Position numbers and translations under genes: made by a program
Shown: positions 52,533 through 59,852 of the stretch, in pieces
How positions within the stretch are numbered: the first letter of the stretch is position 1
Layout: each line of letters opens with the position of its first letter
Origin: Phycisphaerales bacterium
GTDB taxonomy: Bacteria > Planctomycetota > Phycisphaerae > Sedimentisphaerales > Anaerobacaceae
Length of the DNA stretch: 64,000 nucleotides
Direction: 5' to 3'
Assembly: GCA_030602885.1 (NCBI GenBank)
Contig: JAUVYV010000003.1
Location: forward strand, 62,001 to 126,000
Notes under the pieces: model-generated
Seen by the model: the letters and a program-made list of their open reading frames with translations, nothing else
Databases searched by the model: none
What the model was told of the DNA's origin: nothing

Positions 52533-53339
52533 TTACTGCGTCGGTCCTTCCGCCAGTGCCTGCTTCACAGTTGCTATGAATTCCGATATCTCCGCCACCG
52601 CCTTGTCCTTATCGTCTAAGTTCTCTTCAATCAGCCCAACTATCTTCGAACCGATTATCACGCCGTCCGCTCCTGCGGCGGCGACCGTCTTTGCGTGTTC
52701 GGGTTTGCTTATCCCAAAGCCGACGCACACCGGAACGTCCGTTACGCCCTTTATCTTTTTGACTAATCCCTCGACCGCGCCGCTAAGCTCGTTCCTGCTG
52801 CCGGTAACCCCTAATACCGACACCGTGTAAATAAAACCCGTTGTCTTCGATGCAATCAGCTTCATCCGCTCGGCATCCGTATTCGGCGTCACCATAAAAA
52901 CCGTATCGAGCCCCGCACCTCTTGCAGGGTCCGCCACCTCATCGGCATCATCGATACTCAAATCGGCAATCAGGACGCTGTTGACGCCCGCCTTATGAAA
53001 ATCACTGAAAAATTTCTCCGTCCCGTATTGATACACAAGGTTATAGTACATCAGCAGACCAATGGGGATATCCCTGTGGACTTTTATTTGCTTGATGAAT
53101 TCGAGAGCTTTCTTGACCGTCATGCCATTGCTGAGTGAGCGAATATCCGCCTTTTGTATCGTAGGCCCGTCCGCAATCGGGTCCGAAAACGGTATCCCAA
53201 GTTCAAGTATGTCCGCCCCGGCATCAATTGCAGCTTTGACTATCTCTATGCTCGTCTCGAAATCAGGGTCACCAATTACAAAAAAAGGTATCAACGCCGC
53301 CCCGTCCACTTCCGAAAAAACCTGGCTGTACGTCTTCAT
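52533..53339 (-). CDS. trpA: Tryptophan synthase alpha subunit
   Basis: ILELGIPFSDPIADGPTIQKA; GFIYTVSVLGVTGSR; VCVGFGISKPEHAK. Confidence 0.97.
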   Translation of the reverse strand: MKTYSQVFSEVDGAALIPFFVIGDPDFETSIEIVKAAIDAGADILELGIPFSDPIADGPTIQKADIRSLSNGMTVKKALEFIKQIKVHRDIPIGLLMYYNLVYQYGTEKFFSDFHKAGVNSVLIADLSIDDADEVADPARGAGLDTVFMVTPNTDAERMKLIASKTTGFIYTVSVLGVTGSRNELSGAVEGLVKKIKGVTDVPVCVGFGISKPEHAKTVAAAGADGVIIGSKIVGLIEENLDDKDKAVAEISEFIATVKQALAEGPTQ

Positions 53340-53385
53340 CCCTTAGAACCTCATCCTCAACTTCTCAATAATCAATCATCAATAC

Positions 53386-54564
53386 TCAGTCCTTCACCGG
53401 CCGATACTTTTCCACAATCCCCACGTCCTTATCGCCTCTGCCCGATAGATTCACAACAACAACCGTTTCCGGATCGAGCTTACCCTTCAGGCCGACTAAA
53501 TGCGCCAGTGCATGTGCGCTCTCCAGCGCCGGCAGTATCCCCTCGGTCTTGCTCAGAAGCTCGAACGCATCCAGCACCTCCTTGTCCTCAGCAGCCACAT
53601 ACTCGACCCTGCCCGAATCTTTCAGCATACAGTGCTCAGGCCCGACCGCCGGGTAATCCAGACCCGCGCTTACCGATTCGGTTTCATACACCTGTCCCTC
53701 GTCATCCTGTAAAAGGTAGGCCTTCGCACCGTGAAGAACACCCACACGACCGGCCACTAAAGTCGCCGCGTGCCGACCGCTGCTCAAACTCCGCCCGCCT
53801 GCCTCGATGCCTATGAGCTTGACGTCCTTATCATCGATAAACTCGTTGAATATCCCTATAGCATTGCTGCCTCCGCCCACGCACGCCAAAACCATATCGG
53901 GCAGTCTTCCGATTTCGTCCAGACACTGCTGCCTGGCTTCGATGCCGATACATATCTGAAAGTGCTTTACTATCGTCGGATACGGATGTGGCCCGCACGC
54001 CGAGCCGAACAGGTAAAACGTATCTGTCACATGTGCCGTCCAGTACCGAAGCGCATCATTTATCGCGTCCTTTAATGTCCCCGTCCCGCCTTCCACGTCG
54101 ATAACCTCAGCCCCGCATAACTTCATCTTGTGGACGTTGACGCTCTGCCGTTCAATATCCACCACCCCCATGAAAATCTTCGTCTCCATCCCGAACAGAG
54201 CACCAATCATCGCCGTCGCTAATCCATGCTGGCCGGCGCCGGTCTCCGCTATCAGTTTTGTCTTACCCATATATTTGGCGAGCAATCCCTGCCCTAAAGT
54301 GTTGTTCACTTTATGTGCTCCGCCGTGCAGCAAATCTTCCCGTTTTAAATAGACCTTGCAGCCAACATGCTCGCTGAAGCGCTTCGCATAATAAAGAGGC
54401 GAGGGCCGACCCGCATAGTGCCGCGAAAGGTCCTCGAGCTCCGACACAAACTCATCGTCCTCATAGAATCGATAAAACGCCTCCTCCAATTCCTCCAGTG
54501 CCGGTATAAGAACCTCGGGAACATAAAACCCGCCGTAATCACCAAATCTGCCTTTCTGCTTCAT
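53386..54564 (-). CDS. trpB: Tryptophan synthase beta subunit
   Basis: [13 protein letters not shown]-type region ([19 protein letters not shown]); [37 protein letters not shown]. Confidence 0.98.
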
Positions 54565-54573
54565 GCCTTTAAC

Positions 54574-55197
54574 TCATCCTCTCAAATGTTCTATGTTATC
54601 GAACAACGCTTTCATCTTCTTATGGTCCTTCTTGCCCGGCTCGACCTCTATCCCGCTGCATACATCTATCCCGTAAACGCCGAGCTTAACCGCCTTCACA
54701 ACATTATCAGGGTTTATACCACCAGCTAAAAAAACACGCTTGGTTATGTGACCTATTATATTCCAGTCAAACGTAAGACCTGTGCCTCCGTATTTCTCCG
54801 GATCGTACGCATCCAGCAAAATCGCATCCGTAAAATACTCCTCCGCTCGTTCGATATCGTTCTCATCTTTCACCCGTATCGCCTTCATTGTCCGCACGTT
54901 TACCGTCCGAAACTGCTCGCAGAACTCCGGCGTCTCGTCTCCGTGAAGCTGCACCCAATCGAAACTATATCTCCCAAGCGGCTCCTGAATCTCTTCCAAT
55001 GACGAATTAACAAAAAGCCCCACAGTATCCACAAAACCCGGCAGCTTTCCTATGATCTCCGCCGCTTGCTCGGTCGTCACATACCTCGGGCTTTTCGGGT
55101 AAAAATTAAAACCCAGCAGGTCCGCGCCCATATCCACCGCTGCCATCGCATCTTTGTAGTTCGTAAGACCGCAAATTTTGACCTTTACTATCAACAT
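54574..55197 (-). CDS. trpF: Phosphoribosylanthranilate isomerase
   Basis: KVKICGLTNYKDAMAAVDMGADLLGFNFYPKSPRYV; FDWVQLHGDE; GIDVCSGIEVEPGKKDHKKM. Confidence 0.97.
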   Translation of the reverse strand: MLIVKVKICGLTNYKDAMAAVDMGADLLGFNFYPKSPRYVTTEQAAEIIGKLPGFVDTVGLFVNSSLEEIQEPLGRYSFDWVQLHGDETPEFCEQFRTVNVRTMKAIRVKDENDIERAEEYFTDAILLDAYDPEKYGGTGLTFDWNIIGHITKRVFLAGGINPDNVVKAVKLGVYGIDVCSGIEVEPGKKDHKKMKALFDNIEHLRG

Positions 55198-55212
55198 CCC
55201 TGCTAATTCTCA

Positions 55213-56235
55213 CTACTGCCGACCGTTCGAAATCTCAATCAACCTCTCCAGACACCGATTTGCCTTCCCCTCATCGACCGACGCCCCTGCCAGCTCCAGT
55301 GCCGACTTGAAATCATCTGCAAGCCCCCCCACGATGATTCCCGCCGCAGCATTCAGCAGCACAATATCACGCCTCGGCCCCTTCCCCGAGCCGCTCAAAA
55401 TCTCTCGTATCACCTGTGCATTTGCAATCGCGTCGCCCGTCTCAAGCTCCTCTATCGCCGTGCTCGATATCCCCAGCTCTGACGGGTCAAGCTCCGACGA
55501 AACAATCTGACCGTCCCGGACCTCCCGAATCTGCGTCGTCCCGAGTATGCTTATCTCATCCATACCCTGGCCGTGAACGACCATCGCACGTTCTGCCCCG
55601 AGTATCTTCAGTGTCTCGGCTATTCTGTCCAAAAGTGCCGCATCCGCTACACCCATCACCTGCCGCTTTACCCCCGCCGGGTTCGCCAGCGGCCCTAAGA
55701 TATTAAACGCCGTTCGAAAATCTAAGCTCTTGCGTATCGGCTGAACGAACTTCATTGCCGGATGAAACTTCGGCGCAAACATAAAACCGATATGCGCCTC
55801 TTCTATGCACTCTGCCACTACCTCAGGCCCCGGCTCGATATTCACGCCAAGCTCCGCAAGAACATCCGCAGAACCGCAACGGCTCGTAATTCCTCTATTG
55901 CCGTGTTTCGCCACATACACCCCTGCTCCCGCTGCTACCACCGCTGCCGCCGTCGATATATTGAACGTCTTAACCGTCGCTCCTCCCGTTCCGCACGTAT
56001 CTATCAGCGGCTCGGCGTTCACCTTGACCGACACCGCATGCTCACGCAGCGACTTGGCCAGACCGGCGATCTCACCGCTCGTCGCACGCTTCATCCGCAT
56101 CATCGCCAGAAAAGCCGCAATCTGAACCTCGCTCACCTCGCCGGTGAATATCCTGTCCTGCAGAGATTTGGCCTGCTCGAACGTCAAATCCCTGCCCTCA
56201 AGAATTATCTCAAGAAACTCCGTTATCGTCGCCAT
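55213..56235 (-). CDS. trpD: Anthranilate phosphoribosyltransferase
   Basis: DTCGTGGATVKTFNISTAAAVVAAGAGVYVAKHGNRGITSRCGSADVLAELG. Confidence 0.98.
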   Translation of the reverse strand: MATITEFLEIILEGRDLTFEQAKSLQDRIFTGEVSEVQIAAFLAMMRMKRATSGEIAGLAKSLREHAVSVKVNAEPLIDTCGTGGATVKTFNISTAAAVVAAGAGVYVAKHGNRGITSRCGSADVLAELGVNIEPGPEVVAECIEEAHIGFMFAPKFHPAMKFVQPIRKSLDFRTAFNILGPLANPAGVKRQVMGVADAALLDRIAETLKILGAERAMVVHGQGMDEISILGTTQIREVRDGQIVSSELDPSELGISSTAIEELETGDAIANAQVIREILSGSGKGPRRDIVLLNAAAGIIVGGLADDFKSALELAGASVDEGKANRCLERLIEISNGRQ

Positions 56236-56250
56236 TACTCACTGCTCCTG

Positions 56251-56850
56251 TTATCCTTTTTTTGAAAGCGCAATCCCCAGCACATTCTCGATAATCTTGC
56301 CGCCCGCAGGCGTCAATATGCTCTCCGGGTGAAACTGTACGCCGAATATCGGCAGCTCCCTGTGTCTGATACCCATATTTATCCCTTCAAACTCCGCCGT
56401 CTCCTCCAGGCACTCCGGCAGTTCCACGCTGCACAAACTGTGGTATCGGCCTGCCTGCAGCGGATTCTCGATACCGGTAAATATGCCCTTACCGTTGTGC
56501 GTAACACGCGACGGCTTACCGTGCACCGGCTCCGGGGCATAACCTATCCTGCCGCCGAAATACTCCACTATAACCTGATGGCCAAGGCAAACCCCGAATA
56601 TCGGCACCTTATCCTTAAAATACTCCACCGCCGAAAGTGACACTCCTGCGCTGCTCGGATTGCCGGGCCCGGGGCTAATCAGGAGCAAATCCGGCTCGAA
56701 CTTCTCGGCCACTCGCCTCAAATCCTCAAGCGACGTATCTGCCCGATAAACCTTCGCTTCGCAGTTGCGCTTGCAGAAATCATCCACCAGATTATAGGTG
56801 AACGAATCGAAATTGTCGATGAACAAAACCTTCCTCGGCTTACCTTCCAT
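56251..56850 (-). CDS. trpG: Anthranilate synthase component II (glutamine amidotransferase)
   Basis: VLFIDNFDSFTYNLVD; LLISPGPGNPSSAG; VPIFGVCLGHQVIVEYFGG; GVQFHPESILTP. Confidence 0.97.
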   Translation of the reverse strand: MEGKPRKVLFIDNFDSFTYNLVDDFCKRNCEAKVYRADTSLEDLRRVAEKFEPDLLLISPGPGNPSSAGVSLSAVEYFKDKVPIFGVCLGHQVIVEYFGGRIGYAPEPVHGKPSRVTHNGKGIFTGIENPLQAGRYHSLCSVELPECLEETAEFEGINMGIRHRELPIFGVQFHPESILTPAGGKIIENVLGIALSKKG

Positions 56851-56868
56851 ACTATTCTCCTTGCATTA

Positions 56869-58464
56869 CTACTTTTCCCTTATTGCCCGCATGCACGAGC
56901 CGGCCTTGTGCTCGGTCTCTTCGAACTCCGTCTTCGGAACACTGTCGTGAACAATCCCCGCGCCTACACGAATGTACGCCGCATGGTCCTTAATCTGTAA
57001 GCTCCGTATCGTAATACAACTGTCGAACTGACCGTCAACCGTCAGATACATCACCGCTCCGCCGTAATAGCCCCGCTTCGTCTTCTCTAACCGGCGGATT
57101 ATCTTCATCGCCTCTATCTTCGGAGCCCCCGTCAATGTCCCCATATTCATCGTCGCAAGATACGCGCTCAGCGCATCAAGATTATCGGCTAATGTCCCCT
57201 TCACATTGCTGACTAAATGCTGAACCGACTCATACTTCTCCACCGTCAAAAGCTCGGTAACCATTCGGCTGCCCGGCTCAGCCACCCTCGCAATATCGTT
57301 TCGAGCCAAATCGACTAACATCATATGCTCGGCTAATTCCTTGCGGTCTATCTTCAGCTCCGCCTCATACCTGAAATCAATATCCGCATCAATCTTCCCG
57401 CCTGTCTTACCTCTCGGCTTTGTACCGGCAATAGGCCGAATCTCCACACTCCGCTCCTCCGTCCCTCTTACCCGAAGGTTCAGCTCCGGGCTTGAACCCA
57501 GCAGAACCGTATTCGGCGTATGCAGATAGAACATGTACGGCGACGGATTCAGCTCTCGAAGCCGCTTATAGACATCTAACGGCTCATCTACGCACGGCTC
57601 CATCTTGGTCCTGCTCAGAACCACCTGACAAATATCGCTGTCCAGAATATGCTGCTTCGCCTCTTTCACCATCGCTTCATATTCCGGCTGCTCCGTATCG
57701 GTCGAGCTGTCCGCCGGCTCGCCCGTGTATATCTCCCCGGTTGGCGTCTCGAATCTCGCGATATTCGCGTAATAGTCAAAACAATCCTGCGCTTCGCTTA
57801 TCGCTGCCTCGCGGTCACCGTTCGTTATTATTACGTTCACGACCACATACCCCTGGCTGTGCTCGTGGTCCACAAGGAAGATGTTGTCCGCAAAGTAAAG
57901 CTCATAATCCGGGTTGCCTAATATGTCCTCCTTGTTGACGGGAAGCTTCTCGAACTGGTCTATGAAATCGTAGCTCAGTGCCCCCAACAGTCCGCACGTA
58001 ACTCGAAACGGCTTGCTCGCTAACTGAAATCCAAACGCCACCGCACGAAGAACATCCATCTGATTTGTGCACCCAAGCCGCGTCTGCTCGTCAACCAGCT
58101 CCTCAGTGTGTTTGATTCTTCCCTTTATCAGGTCGGTTTCGAAATCAACCTCTTCACAGAAGTCGAATCTCTCGGCATTTGATGTCAGGTACGCTATCAT
58201 TCGCATCCCCGTCTTGTTCAGCGCCTTTATGGTAAATTTCCTGCCGGTCCCCATAAGGTACAGCGCCGGCCTGGCCGTCCCGAAGCTCAGCGCACCGGCC
58301 CCCTTCATGTACTCGCGCGACTCGAACAGGCAGCAGTTCTTCGCTCGGCCGTAGTCGCTTATCTTCGCAAAGAAGTCCATCGGGTCAGCCATTGCGACCT
58401 GTTTGACAATCGGCACTATCTGCCCGGGCTTGGCATTCAATATGATTTGTCTGTAATCTTCCAT
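56869..58464 (-). CDS. trpE: Anthranilate synthase component I
   Basis: ELAEHMMLVDLARNDIARVAEPGSRMV; MGTLTGAPKIEAMKIIRRLE; likely start MEDYRQIILN at 58464 (AAGGA ~10 nt upstream); ORF track runs to 58560 through the leader. Confidence 0.96.
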   Translation of the reverse strand: MEDYRQIILNAKPGQIVPIVKQVAMADPMDFFAKISDYGRAKNCCLFESREYMKGAGALSFGTARPALYLMGTGRKFTIKALNKTGMRMIAYLTSNAERFDFCEEVDFETDLIKGRIKHTEELVDEQTRLGCTNQMDVLRAVAFGFQLASKPFRVTCGLLGALSYDFIDQFEKLPVNKEDILGNPDYELYFADNIFLVDHEHSQGYVVVNVIITNGDREAAISEAQDCFDYYANIARFETPTGEIYTGEPADSSTDTEQPEYEAMVKEAKQHILDSDICQVVLSRTKMEPCVDEPLDVYKRLRELNPSPYMFYLHTPNTVLLGSSPELNLRVRGTEERSVEIRPIAGTKPRGKTGGKIDADIDFRYEAELKIDRKELAEHMMLVDLARNDIARVAEPGSRMVTELLTVEKYESVQHLVSNVKGTLADNLDALSAYLATMNMGTLTGAPKIEAMKIIRRLEKTKRGYYGGAVMYLTVDGQFDSCITIRSLQIKDHAAYIRVGAGIVHDSVPKTEFEETEHKAGSCMRAIREK

Positions 58465-58518
58465 TTCTTTCATATCCTTATTATAAATCTTTGTGTTCTC
58501 TGTGTCCTCTGTAGCCAA

Positions 58519-58556
58519 TAAAAAAAACGACCTGCTGTTGTCCAACAGGCCGCGTT
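58519..58556 (-). terminator. trp attenuator terminator hairpin with T8
   Basis: Minus strand: GCGGCCTGTTGGACAACAGCAGGTCG followed by TTTTTTTT, upstream of trpE. Confidence 0.8.
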
Positions 58557-58609
58557 TCATACGCTTAACGGATTTTCCTATCTATAGCAGTCGTCCGCTC
58601 GCCTGCCGG

Positions 58610-58663
58610 CTATCCAACAGGCCACCACCATACCCAACTGGTTGTGCGGACTATCTGACTCAT
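58610..58663 (-). CDS. trpL: trp leader peptide MSQIVRTTSWVWWWPVG
   Basis: Minus strand ATG AGT CAG ATA GTC CGC ACA ACC AGT TGG GTA TGG TGG TGG CCT GTT GGA TAG; four Trp codons in 17. Confidence 0.85.
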   Translation of the reverse strand: MSQIVRTTSWVWWWPVG

Positions 58664-58671
58664 AATACCGC

Positions 58672-58700
58672 ATTGTATCACAATTCTGAGAATCTGTCAA
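58672..58700 (-). promoter_or_regulatory. Consensus sigma70-type promoter of the trp operon
   Basis: Minus strand TTGACA (58700..58695) - 17 nt - TACAAT (58677..58672). Confidence 0.85.
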
Positions 58701-58789: not shown

Positions 58790-59161
58790 TCAGTCAAACC
58801 ACTCATCGGCCGGGTCAAAAGCCGGTATCGGCACGTTGACTACCCGCATCTTCCCCACCGCCCGATGCCGGCAGCCAGGCCGAATAAACACCGCCGTCAT
58901 CGGCCTCACCGCCACCAGCTCACCGTCTAATTCCATATGTCCTTCACCTTCGAGTATCAGATAAAGCTCTGTGAGTCTCTTGTGATAATGAACCTTTGCA
59001 TCCTCGATAATATCGACCATGTGCATAGTGGCCGTCTGGTTGTCGTCCGCCACAAAGGCCCGCCGTGAAAACCCGCACGGGCACCTCGCTGGCTCAATCT
59101 CATCCAACTGCGCAACCATATAATTCGCCATCGTGTACCTCAGTCCTGTCGCCGATGTCAT
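58790..59161 (-). CDS. Cupin-domain protein
   Basis: VHYHKRLTELYLILEGEGHMELDGELVAVRPMTAVFIRPGCRHRAVG. Confidence 0.85.
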   Translation of the reverse strand: MTSATGLRYTMANYMVAQLDEIEPARCPCGFSRRAFVADDNQTATMHMVDIIEDAKVHYHKRLTELYLILEGEGHMELDGELVAVRPMTAVFIRPGCRHRAVGKMRVVNVPIPAFDPADEWFD

Positions 59162-59541
59162 TGCTCTAACTCAGGACAGGTGTTACACACTTTGTCGATA
59201 ATAGCCTGGGCCTTCGCTATAGCGAGTTCTGCATCACTCCGTGAAACCTGTATCAGTCCCCCGTAGTCGCCGGTTTCTCGCAGGTCCATCAAAAAATCAA
59301 ACGCCTTACCGAGATCAATAGGCCATTGGCTCGTTTTAATAAGGTCACGGTGCAGCGCTGCACGCAGTGCAGAATGCTTTGAGAAGCTTTGGCCTCGAAA
59401 CGCAAACAGTGTAGTAAGTGCATGAAAGGCCGCATAGTAAGCACGGGAAGCAGCCGAGTCAGGGTCGGTCTCAATAAGCTGCCTTGCCGAAGACAGTGTG
59501 CGTAGAGCACGTTCCCATTGCGTCATGGCAAATTCATTCAT
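59158..59541 (-). CDS. HEPN-domain protein
   Basis: SAASRAYYAAFHALTTLFAFRGQSFSKHSALRAALHRDLIKT; start MNEFAMTQWERAL at 59541, ATGA overlaps with both neighbours. Confidence 0.8.
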   Translation of the reverse strand: MNEFAMTQWERALRTLSSARQLIETDPDSAASRAYYAAFHALTTLFAFRGQSFSKHSALRAALHRDLIKTSQWPIDLGKAFDFLMDLRETGDYGGLIQVSRSDAELAIAKAQAIIDKVCNTCPELEQ

Positions 59542-59852
59542 AGCACTATCCCTTCGCGCCGAGCGGCTCGAAAGAGGGGACAATCAAGCCGTTCATAATC
59601 GGACGCGAGAATCGGCTTGGCGCTAATGCGACGACCAAGCTGCAGGGACACAGGATAAAGAGCGTCAAGGTTAGTCTGCAAATCACGACCATAATCTAAT
59701 GGCCCATCAAGCAAAACGAGGATATCCACGTCACTGTCTTCTCCGGTTTCGCCACGGGCCTCAGAACCGTACAGAACTACCGCTCGAAGACGGTCGTGGT
59801 ATGCAGCTATCAAACGGGACCTGATTTGCCGCATTAAGTCTTCTCTGGTCAT
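59538..59852 (-). CDS. MNT-type nucleotidyltransferase
   Basis: AVVLYGSEARGETGEDSDVDILVLLDGP with intact GS...DxD. Confidence 0.88.
   Translation of the reverse strand: MTREDLMRQIRSRLIAAYHDRLRAVVLYGSEARGETGEDSDVDILVLLDGPLDYGRDLQTNLDALYPVSLQLGRRISAKPILASDYERLDCPLFRAARREGIVL

Follow-up and report, generated by a model that had tools for sequence, protein, structure and literature searches.

A probable ribosome-mediated attenuator with a predicted leaderless leader gene ahead of the trp operon in Sedimentisphaerales

Results

The trp operon and the anatomy of its leader

The window, a stretch of 64,000 nucleotides from a Phycisphaerales bacterium (contig JAUVYV010000003.1, positions 62,001 to 126,000), carries a trp operon on its minus strand at 52533-58464. 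The operon begins with trpE, encoding an anthranilate synthase component I of the E. coli type (NF010079; 56869..58464), and continues with trpG (anthranilate synthase glutamine amidotransferase, 56251..56850), trpD (anthranilate phosphoribosyltransferase, 55213..56235), trpF (phosphoribosylanthranilate isomerase, 54574..55197), trpB (tryptophan synthase beta, 53386..54564) and trpA (tryptophan synthase alpha, 52533..53339); trpC, for indole-3-glycerol phosphate synthase, is absent from it. A mechanical call of open reading frames starts trpE at 58560; this start was rejected, as the frame from it traverses the terminator described below and is not conserved. The conserved start is the ATG at 58464, as an earlier sequence-only reading of the region had implied. 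That reading had also guessed the lineage from gene content, and the DNA does belong to Planctomycetota, Phycisphaerae, Sedimentisphaerales. Between the terminator and trpE (58488-58512) lies a dispersed repeat, ACAGAGGACACAGAGAACACAAAGA; a 16-mer of it is found at nine genomic sites when up to one mismatch is allowed (control, 0). The trp promoter is preceded by a cupin gene, and just upstream of that gene a HEPN domain protein and an MNT nucleotidyltransferase form a toxin-antitoxin-like pair (59158-59852). A plasmid search gave no match.

Upstream of trpE, the sequence-only reading had proposed a complete trp attenuator, and we found its parts in place on the minus strand. A sigma-70-type promoter, TTGACA-17 nt-TACAAT, spans 58672..58700, with boxes at 58700-58695 and 58677-58672 that score 11 of 12 and the TG of an extended -10 element ahead of the second box. 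The unannotated leader ORF, which we call trpL, follows at 58610..58663; it encodes the 17-residue peptide MSQIVRTTSWVWWWPVG, contains four Trp codons and ends in TAG. Further downstream, an intrinsic terminator occupies 58520..58553, its hairpin (58553-58527) having an 11-pair stem and a 5-nt loop and being followed by U8. The repeated segment that had been described over the Trp codons and stop region and again in the left arm of the terminator is GCCTGTTGG. Its first copy, region 1, lies at 58614..58622, with its first base in the third position of the last Trp codon; its second copy, region 3, lies at 58542..58550 and can serve either as the left arm of the terminator or as a partner of region 2. 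The earlier proposal that an intervening GGCAGGC could pair with either copy needs adjustment: a middle segment does pair with both, but region 2 is better given as CCGGCAGGC (58601..58609), which lies immediately 3′ of the stop codon and is complementary throughout to both copies of GCCTGTTGG, forming nine pairs, two of them G-U.

Conservation of the leader gene among relatives

TrpE homologues were collected from 60 related genomes, and the 45 readable upstream regions were aligned. Left out were two upstream regions that end at contig ends and L006, whose leader start reads N and in which a WWWPAG end, region 2 and the terminator are visible. The sequence-only reading had made its proposal depend on conservation among relatives: a Trp-containing leader ORF, the three helices and a U-run terminator are found in all 45 of these regions from Sedimentisphaerales. 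A micro-ORF with an ATG start, 8-40 codons and the peptide motif WWW or WWR is present in the 330-nt upstream regions of 38 of the 45 relatives, versus 8 of 4500 dinucleotide-preserving shuffles.

The consensus of the 45 aligned leader peptides is MRQINRKNTGNWWWPxG. In three leaders of family f7 (L043-L045), WWW is replaced by WWR or WRR, so that only one or two Trp codons remain, with Arg codons (CGG or CGA) behind them. Judged from these codons, the regulatory codons of the three have partly moved from Trp to Arg, and the Trp sensor there is presumably weak or altered. Five others (L036, L039, L009, L050 and L029) carry small palindromic, repeat-like in-frame inserts such as CCGCTAAGGGATGCCTTAGG and GCTTCGACAAGCTC ahead of the Trp codons, and their leader ORFs are unbroken.

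Competing helices and an additional outer helix

Folding of the full leader gives -55.5 kcal/mol, compared with -40.9 ± 3.6 for shuffled sequences (z = -4.1), and none of 200 shuffles was as good. The alternative pairings postulated by the sequence-only reading, region 1 with 2, region 2 with 3, and region 3 with its partner in the terminator (3:4), were borne out both by folding and by covariation. In the 45-sequence alignment, hairpin 1:2 has a covariation score of 0.296, versus 0.218 for shuffled (0/500) and at most 0.101 for slid controls, and the antiterminator 2:3 has a score of 0.311, versus 0.274 (2/500) and at most 0.129. In terminator 3:4, 93.8% of cells are paired over the 45 sequences, with double changes in 6 of 9 pairs. 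All three helices exceed both controls in percentage paired and in covariation score, the shuffle controls leaving the relatedness of the 45 sequences in place. Region 2 has to match regions 1 and 3 alike, which ties the three helices to one another.

A further helix, at 58589..58660, encloses hairpin 1:2 and emerged from the minimum free energy fold as well as from covariation. In this outer helix, the start-proximal codons of the leader (58660-58646) pair with the segment 3′ of region 2 (58598-58589); in consensus, GCAAAUUAACCG in the first leader codons pairs with GCGGUAAUUUGC after region 2. Double changes were counted in 49 cells, versus 31.4 ± 4.9 in shuffled alignments (0/500), and 65% of cells are paired, so that the outer helix is weaker than the other helices. 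Such a covarying helix over the start-proximal codons is a new feature, and it offers an explanation for the conserved N-terminal codons of the leader, RQINR.

The position of this RNA matches that of the trp T-boxes of Firmicutes, and a T-box or amino-acid riboswitch would sense tRNA-Trp or tryptophan directly. The conserved part, however, consists of a presumably translated Trp ORF and three simple competing stems, and an Rfam scan of the leader found no T-box or other family at the gathering score. At E values up to 10 the weak matches were unrelated and no relevant family appeared, including the Trp_leader family RF00513. Direct sensing of this kind is thus exceedingly improbable.

Placement of the ribosome relative to the helices

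In all 45 leaders, region 1 starts either in the third position of the last Trp codon or exactly one or two codons further on, and thus always in the same codon phase. The consequences of this placement were modeled by masking an assumed ribosome footprint of 14 nt. When the ribosome occupies the last Trp codon, RNA transcribed as far as region 3 folds into 2:3 in 39 of 45 sequences, the leader in the window giving 8.98 of 9 expected pairs. When it occupies the stop codon, region 2 is masked and 3:4 folds in 42 of 45. RNA free of a ribosome folds 1:2 and 3:4. About 10 relatives have their stop codon beyond the usual place, so that a ribosome at the stop sits downstream of region 2; in these, the passing ribosome would still displace region 2.

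A terminator followed by trpE would, taken alone, look similar if it were constitutive or controlled by TRAP or another RNA-binding protein, the W-rich ORF being incidental. The recurrence of the WWW or WWR micro-ORF far above the shuffled background, the constant codon phase of region 1 relative to the last Trp codon and the covariation of the antiterminator all argue against an incidental ORF. Likewise, no gene for TRAP (MtrB, PF02081) was found in any of 11 genomes of Sedimentisphaerales, in a search that matched the B. subtilis positive control. We consider a terminator of this kind very improbable. TrpR is present in 2 of the 11 genomes of the order and was not found in that of the window; both TRAP and TrpR were therefore rejected as regulators here.

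The promoter and the start of the leader gene

In all 45 relatives, a TTGACA-like box, a spacer of 17-18 nt and a -10-like box lie in the same place and score 9-12 of 12 (a score of 9 is reached by 5.6% of shuffles and one of 10 by 0.7%). The family pattern is TTGACA-17/18-TNTAAT at a fixed distance from the leader ATG: the end of the -10-like box is separated from the ATG by 5-13 nt in all 45 loci and by exactly 9 nt in 23 of them. In the window, this distance is 8 nt. If transcription starts at the usual 6-8 nt past the -10 box, as we assumed, most 5′ UTRs of the family are 0-5 nt long. An SD-like four-mer occurs at none of the 45 leader ORF starts, versus an SD-like motif at 25 of 33 trpE starts. 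Because the spacing between the -10 box and the ATG is so short and SD-like motifs are absent from the 45 leaders, trpL of the window is predicted to be leaderless or to have a 5′ UTR no longer than about 3 nt, and its translation appears to begin from the first base of the RNA. The same geometry argues against a transcription start downstream of the leader ORF, which the sequence-only reading had named as grounds for rejecting its proposal.

The leader gene might instead have an ordinary 5′ UTR, with a promoter further upstream and initiation that is SD-dependent or otherwise; the logic of attenuation would then stand and the leaderless part would fall. Other weak promoter-like sites do lie nearby (for example 58743-58714, scoring 9 of 12), and the start site in the window is itself deduced from sequence. 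Set against this are the invariable placement and high scores of the promoter before the ATG in the 45 loci and the difference in SD-like motifs between leader and trpE starts, and we regard an ordinary 5′ UTR as improbable.

Distribution of the attenuator and the type of trpE

The attenuator is common to nearly all relatives that have an E. coli-type trpE, and the named records with the same leader are Sedimentisphaerales and Phycisphaerae metagenome genomes. Of 299 genomes of the class Phycisphaerae, 54 gave a match to a covariance model of the leader, and 52 of these belong to Sedimentisphaerales. Both matches outside the order were discarded: one (G226), on a contig of 2.3 kb, is probably contamination, and the other (G144) is weak (E 0.009) and has no Trp leader. 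Genomes of the order that lack a match belong mainly to family f5 and in part to family f4; those of f4 that we tested carry the other TrpE type.

TrpE of the window scores above the cut-off of the E. coli-type model NF010079, whereas in the rest of the class TrpE is mostly of the common type (TIGR00564). In a tree of TrpE, that of the window stands apart from the TrpE of the class with 100/100 support and groups with DPANN archaea and Neomarinimicrobiota. The attenuator is found only alongside this E. coli-type trpE, which differs from its counterparts elsewhere in the class. This pattern suggests horizontal acquisition; on these sequence data, acquisition of trpE in Sedimentisphaerales is the simplest reading.

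Other putative leaders were seen beside trpE genes. Two loci of the same order with the other TrpE type (L152 and L153; family f4, genus g44) have a Trp leader of another sequence, MI(T/S)(C/S)AYNSFYWCWLPEK, accompanied by a purine-rich stretch that resembles an SD motif and, ahead of trpE, by a strong hairpin. Three loci of the same class (L157, L161 and L165; families f16/f26) have W-V-W micro-ORFs before trpE, for example MSNFFQSWVWRRPGRAAGRVSA, whose ATG lies 8-9 nt past a -10-like box and which have no U-run terminator. Trp leaders may thus be wider in Phycisphaerae. In other Planctomycetota (L076 and L079) and in Neomarinimicrobiota (L068), trpE genes of the same broad clade are preceded by WWW micro-ORFs and, after these, by strong hairpins that resemble terminators; in L079, TTGACA-17-TAAGAT lies 7 nt ahead of the ATG.

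We also inspected other amino-acid genes. Upstream of leuA, the window's own genome (L222, G000:C118) and seven further loci (L217, L218, L220, L221, L224, L225 and L226) have a Leu-rich micro-ORF ending, for example, in SIGLLGLGLLLRL and a stop codon. Its ATG lies 4-9 nt past a TATAAT-like box, and a hairpin, TGCGCC-GGCGCA, spans the stop codon. The micro-ORF probably represents a leaderless leucine leader, and in most cases a clear U-run terminator is lacking. Upstream regions of hisG and ilvB gave no conserved His-rich or branched-chain-rich leader.

Discussion

We conclude, with a probability of roughly 0.94, that a classical ribosome-mediated transcription attenuator controls trpEGDFBA. 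The basis for this conclusion is the anatomy of the leader, its order-wide conservation, the covariation of its helices and the geometry of the ribosome relative to them; from these we infer the transcription start, translation and Trp-dependent readthrough. Three elements had been overlooked by the sequence-only reading: the predicted leaderless leader, the foreign, E. coli-like type of trpE, and the outer helix.

These observations suggest the following model. RNA polymerase would start at the AUG of the 17-codon leader gene or no more than about 3 nt away from it, and a ribosome would initiate at the leaderless 5′ end. When Trp-tRNA is scarce, the ribosome would stall in the run of UGG codons and mask region 1, leaving region 2 free to pair with region 3 as it emerges; with 2:3 formed, transcription would run on into trpE. 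When Trp-tRNA is ample, the ribosome would reach the UAG and mask region 2, 3:4 would form, and the U8 terminator would end transcription. Should translation fail, hairpin 1:2, lengthened by the outer helix over the first codons, would favor termination again.

The mechanism itself is textbook; what is new is the lineage, an undescribed RNA family and the extra covarying helix. Like the window's leader, the enterobacterial trpL of E. coli (RF00513) combines a short leader ORF bearing tandem Trp codons with the 1:2/2:3/3:4 switch and an intrinsic terminator before trpE, and the TrpE proteins of both are of the E. coli type. Unlike trpL of E. coli, which is SD-led, the leader in the window is predicted to be leaderless, has the additional outer helix, lies in a genome without TrpR and has no match to RF00513 even at E values up to 10.

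A leaderless trpL is not new in kind, as the arrangement is known from two other bacteria. In Sinorhizobium meliloti, the trp attenuator transcript (trpL/rnTrpL) starts with the trpL ATG (PMC7298713). S. meliloti resembles the window's genome in lacking TrpR-type repression; it belongs to a different phylum, its peptide and RNA sequence differ, and its sRNA and peptide have roles in trans. In Streptomyces lividans, trpL1 is a leaderless leader of 18 residues, MFAHSTRNWWWTAHPAAH, with three Trp, located before trpE and accompanied by a terminator (PMC8079986). There, in an actinobacterium, trpE is monocistronic, whereas the window has the operon trpEGDFBA and three clean competing helices.

We found no report of trp attenuation or leader peptides in Planctomycetes in the open-licence literature, and an earlier report elsewhere is possible. 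The distribution of such systems is reportedly treated in reviews by Merino, Jensen and Yanofsky and by Lopatovskaya and colleagues. According to a survey from 2010 (PMC2965389), no leader-peptide system was known beyond Proteobacteria and Actinobacteria until the His leader that the survey itself described in Firmicutes.

A more far-reaching interpretation is a speculation that we think rather unlikely to hold in full. The attenuator would be self-gating, the outer helix shutting off the first codons once region 2 and its flank have been made, so that about one ribosome would be admitted per transcript. The module and the foreign, E. coli-like trpE would have come into the order together. Leaderless leader peptides, for trp and in the Leu-rich form before leuA, would be a general means of amino-acid control in this planctomycete lineage.

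Our findings place a probable case of classical ribosome-mediated attenuation, a mechanism that requires transcription and translation to be closely coupled, in Planctomycetota, and an order-wide covariance model is now available for an RNA outside Rfam. As the attenuator occurs only with an apparently horizontally acquired trpE, the origin of the switch, whether carried in or evolved in place, can be tested across the leaders of the E. coli-type TrpE clade.
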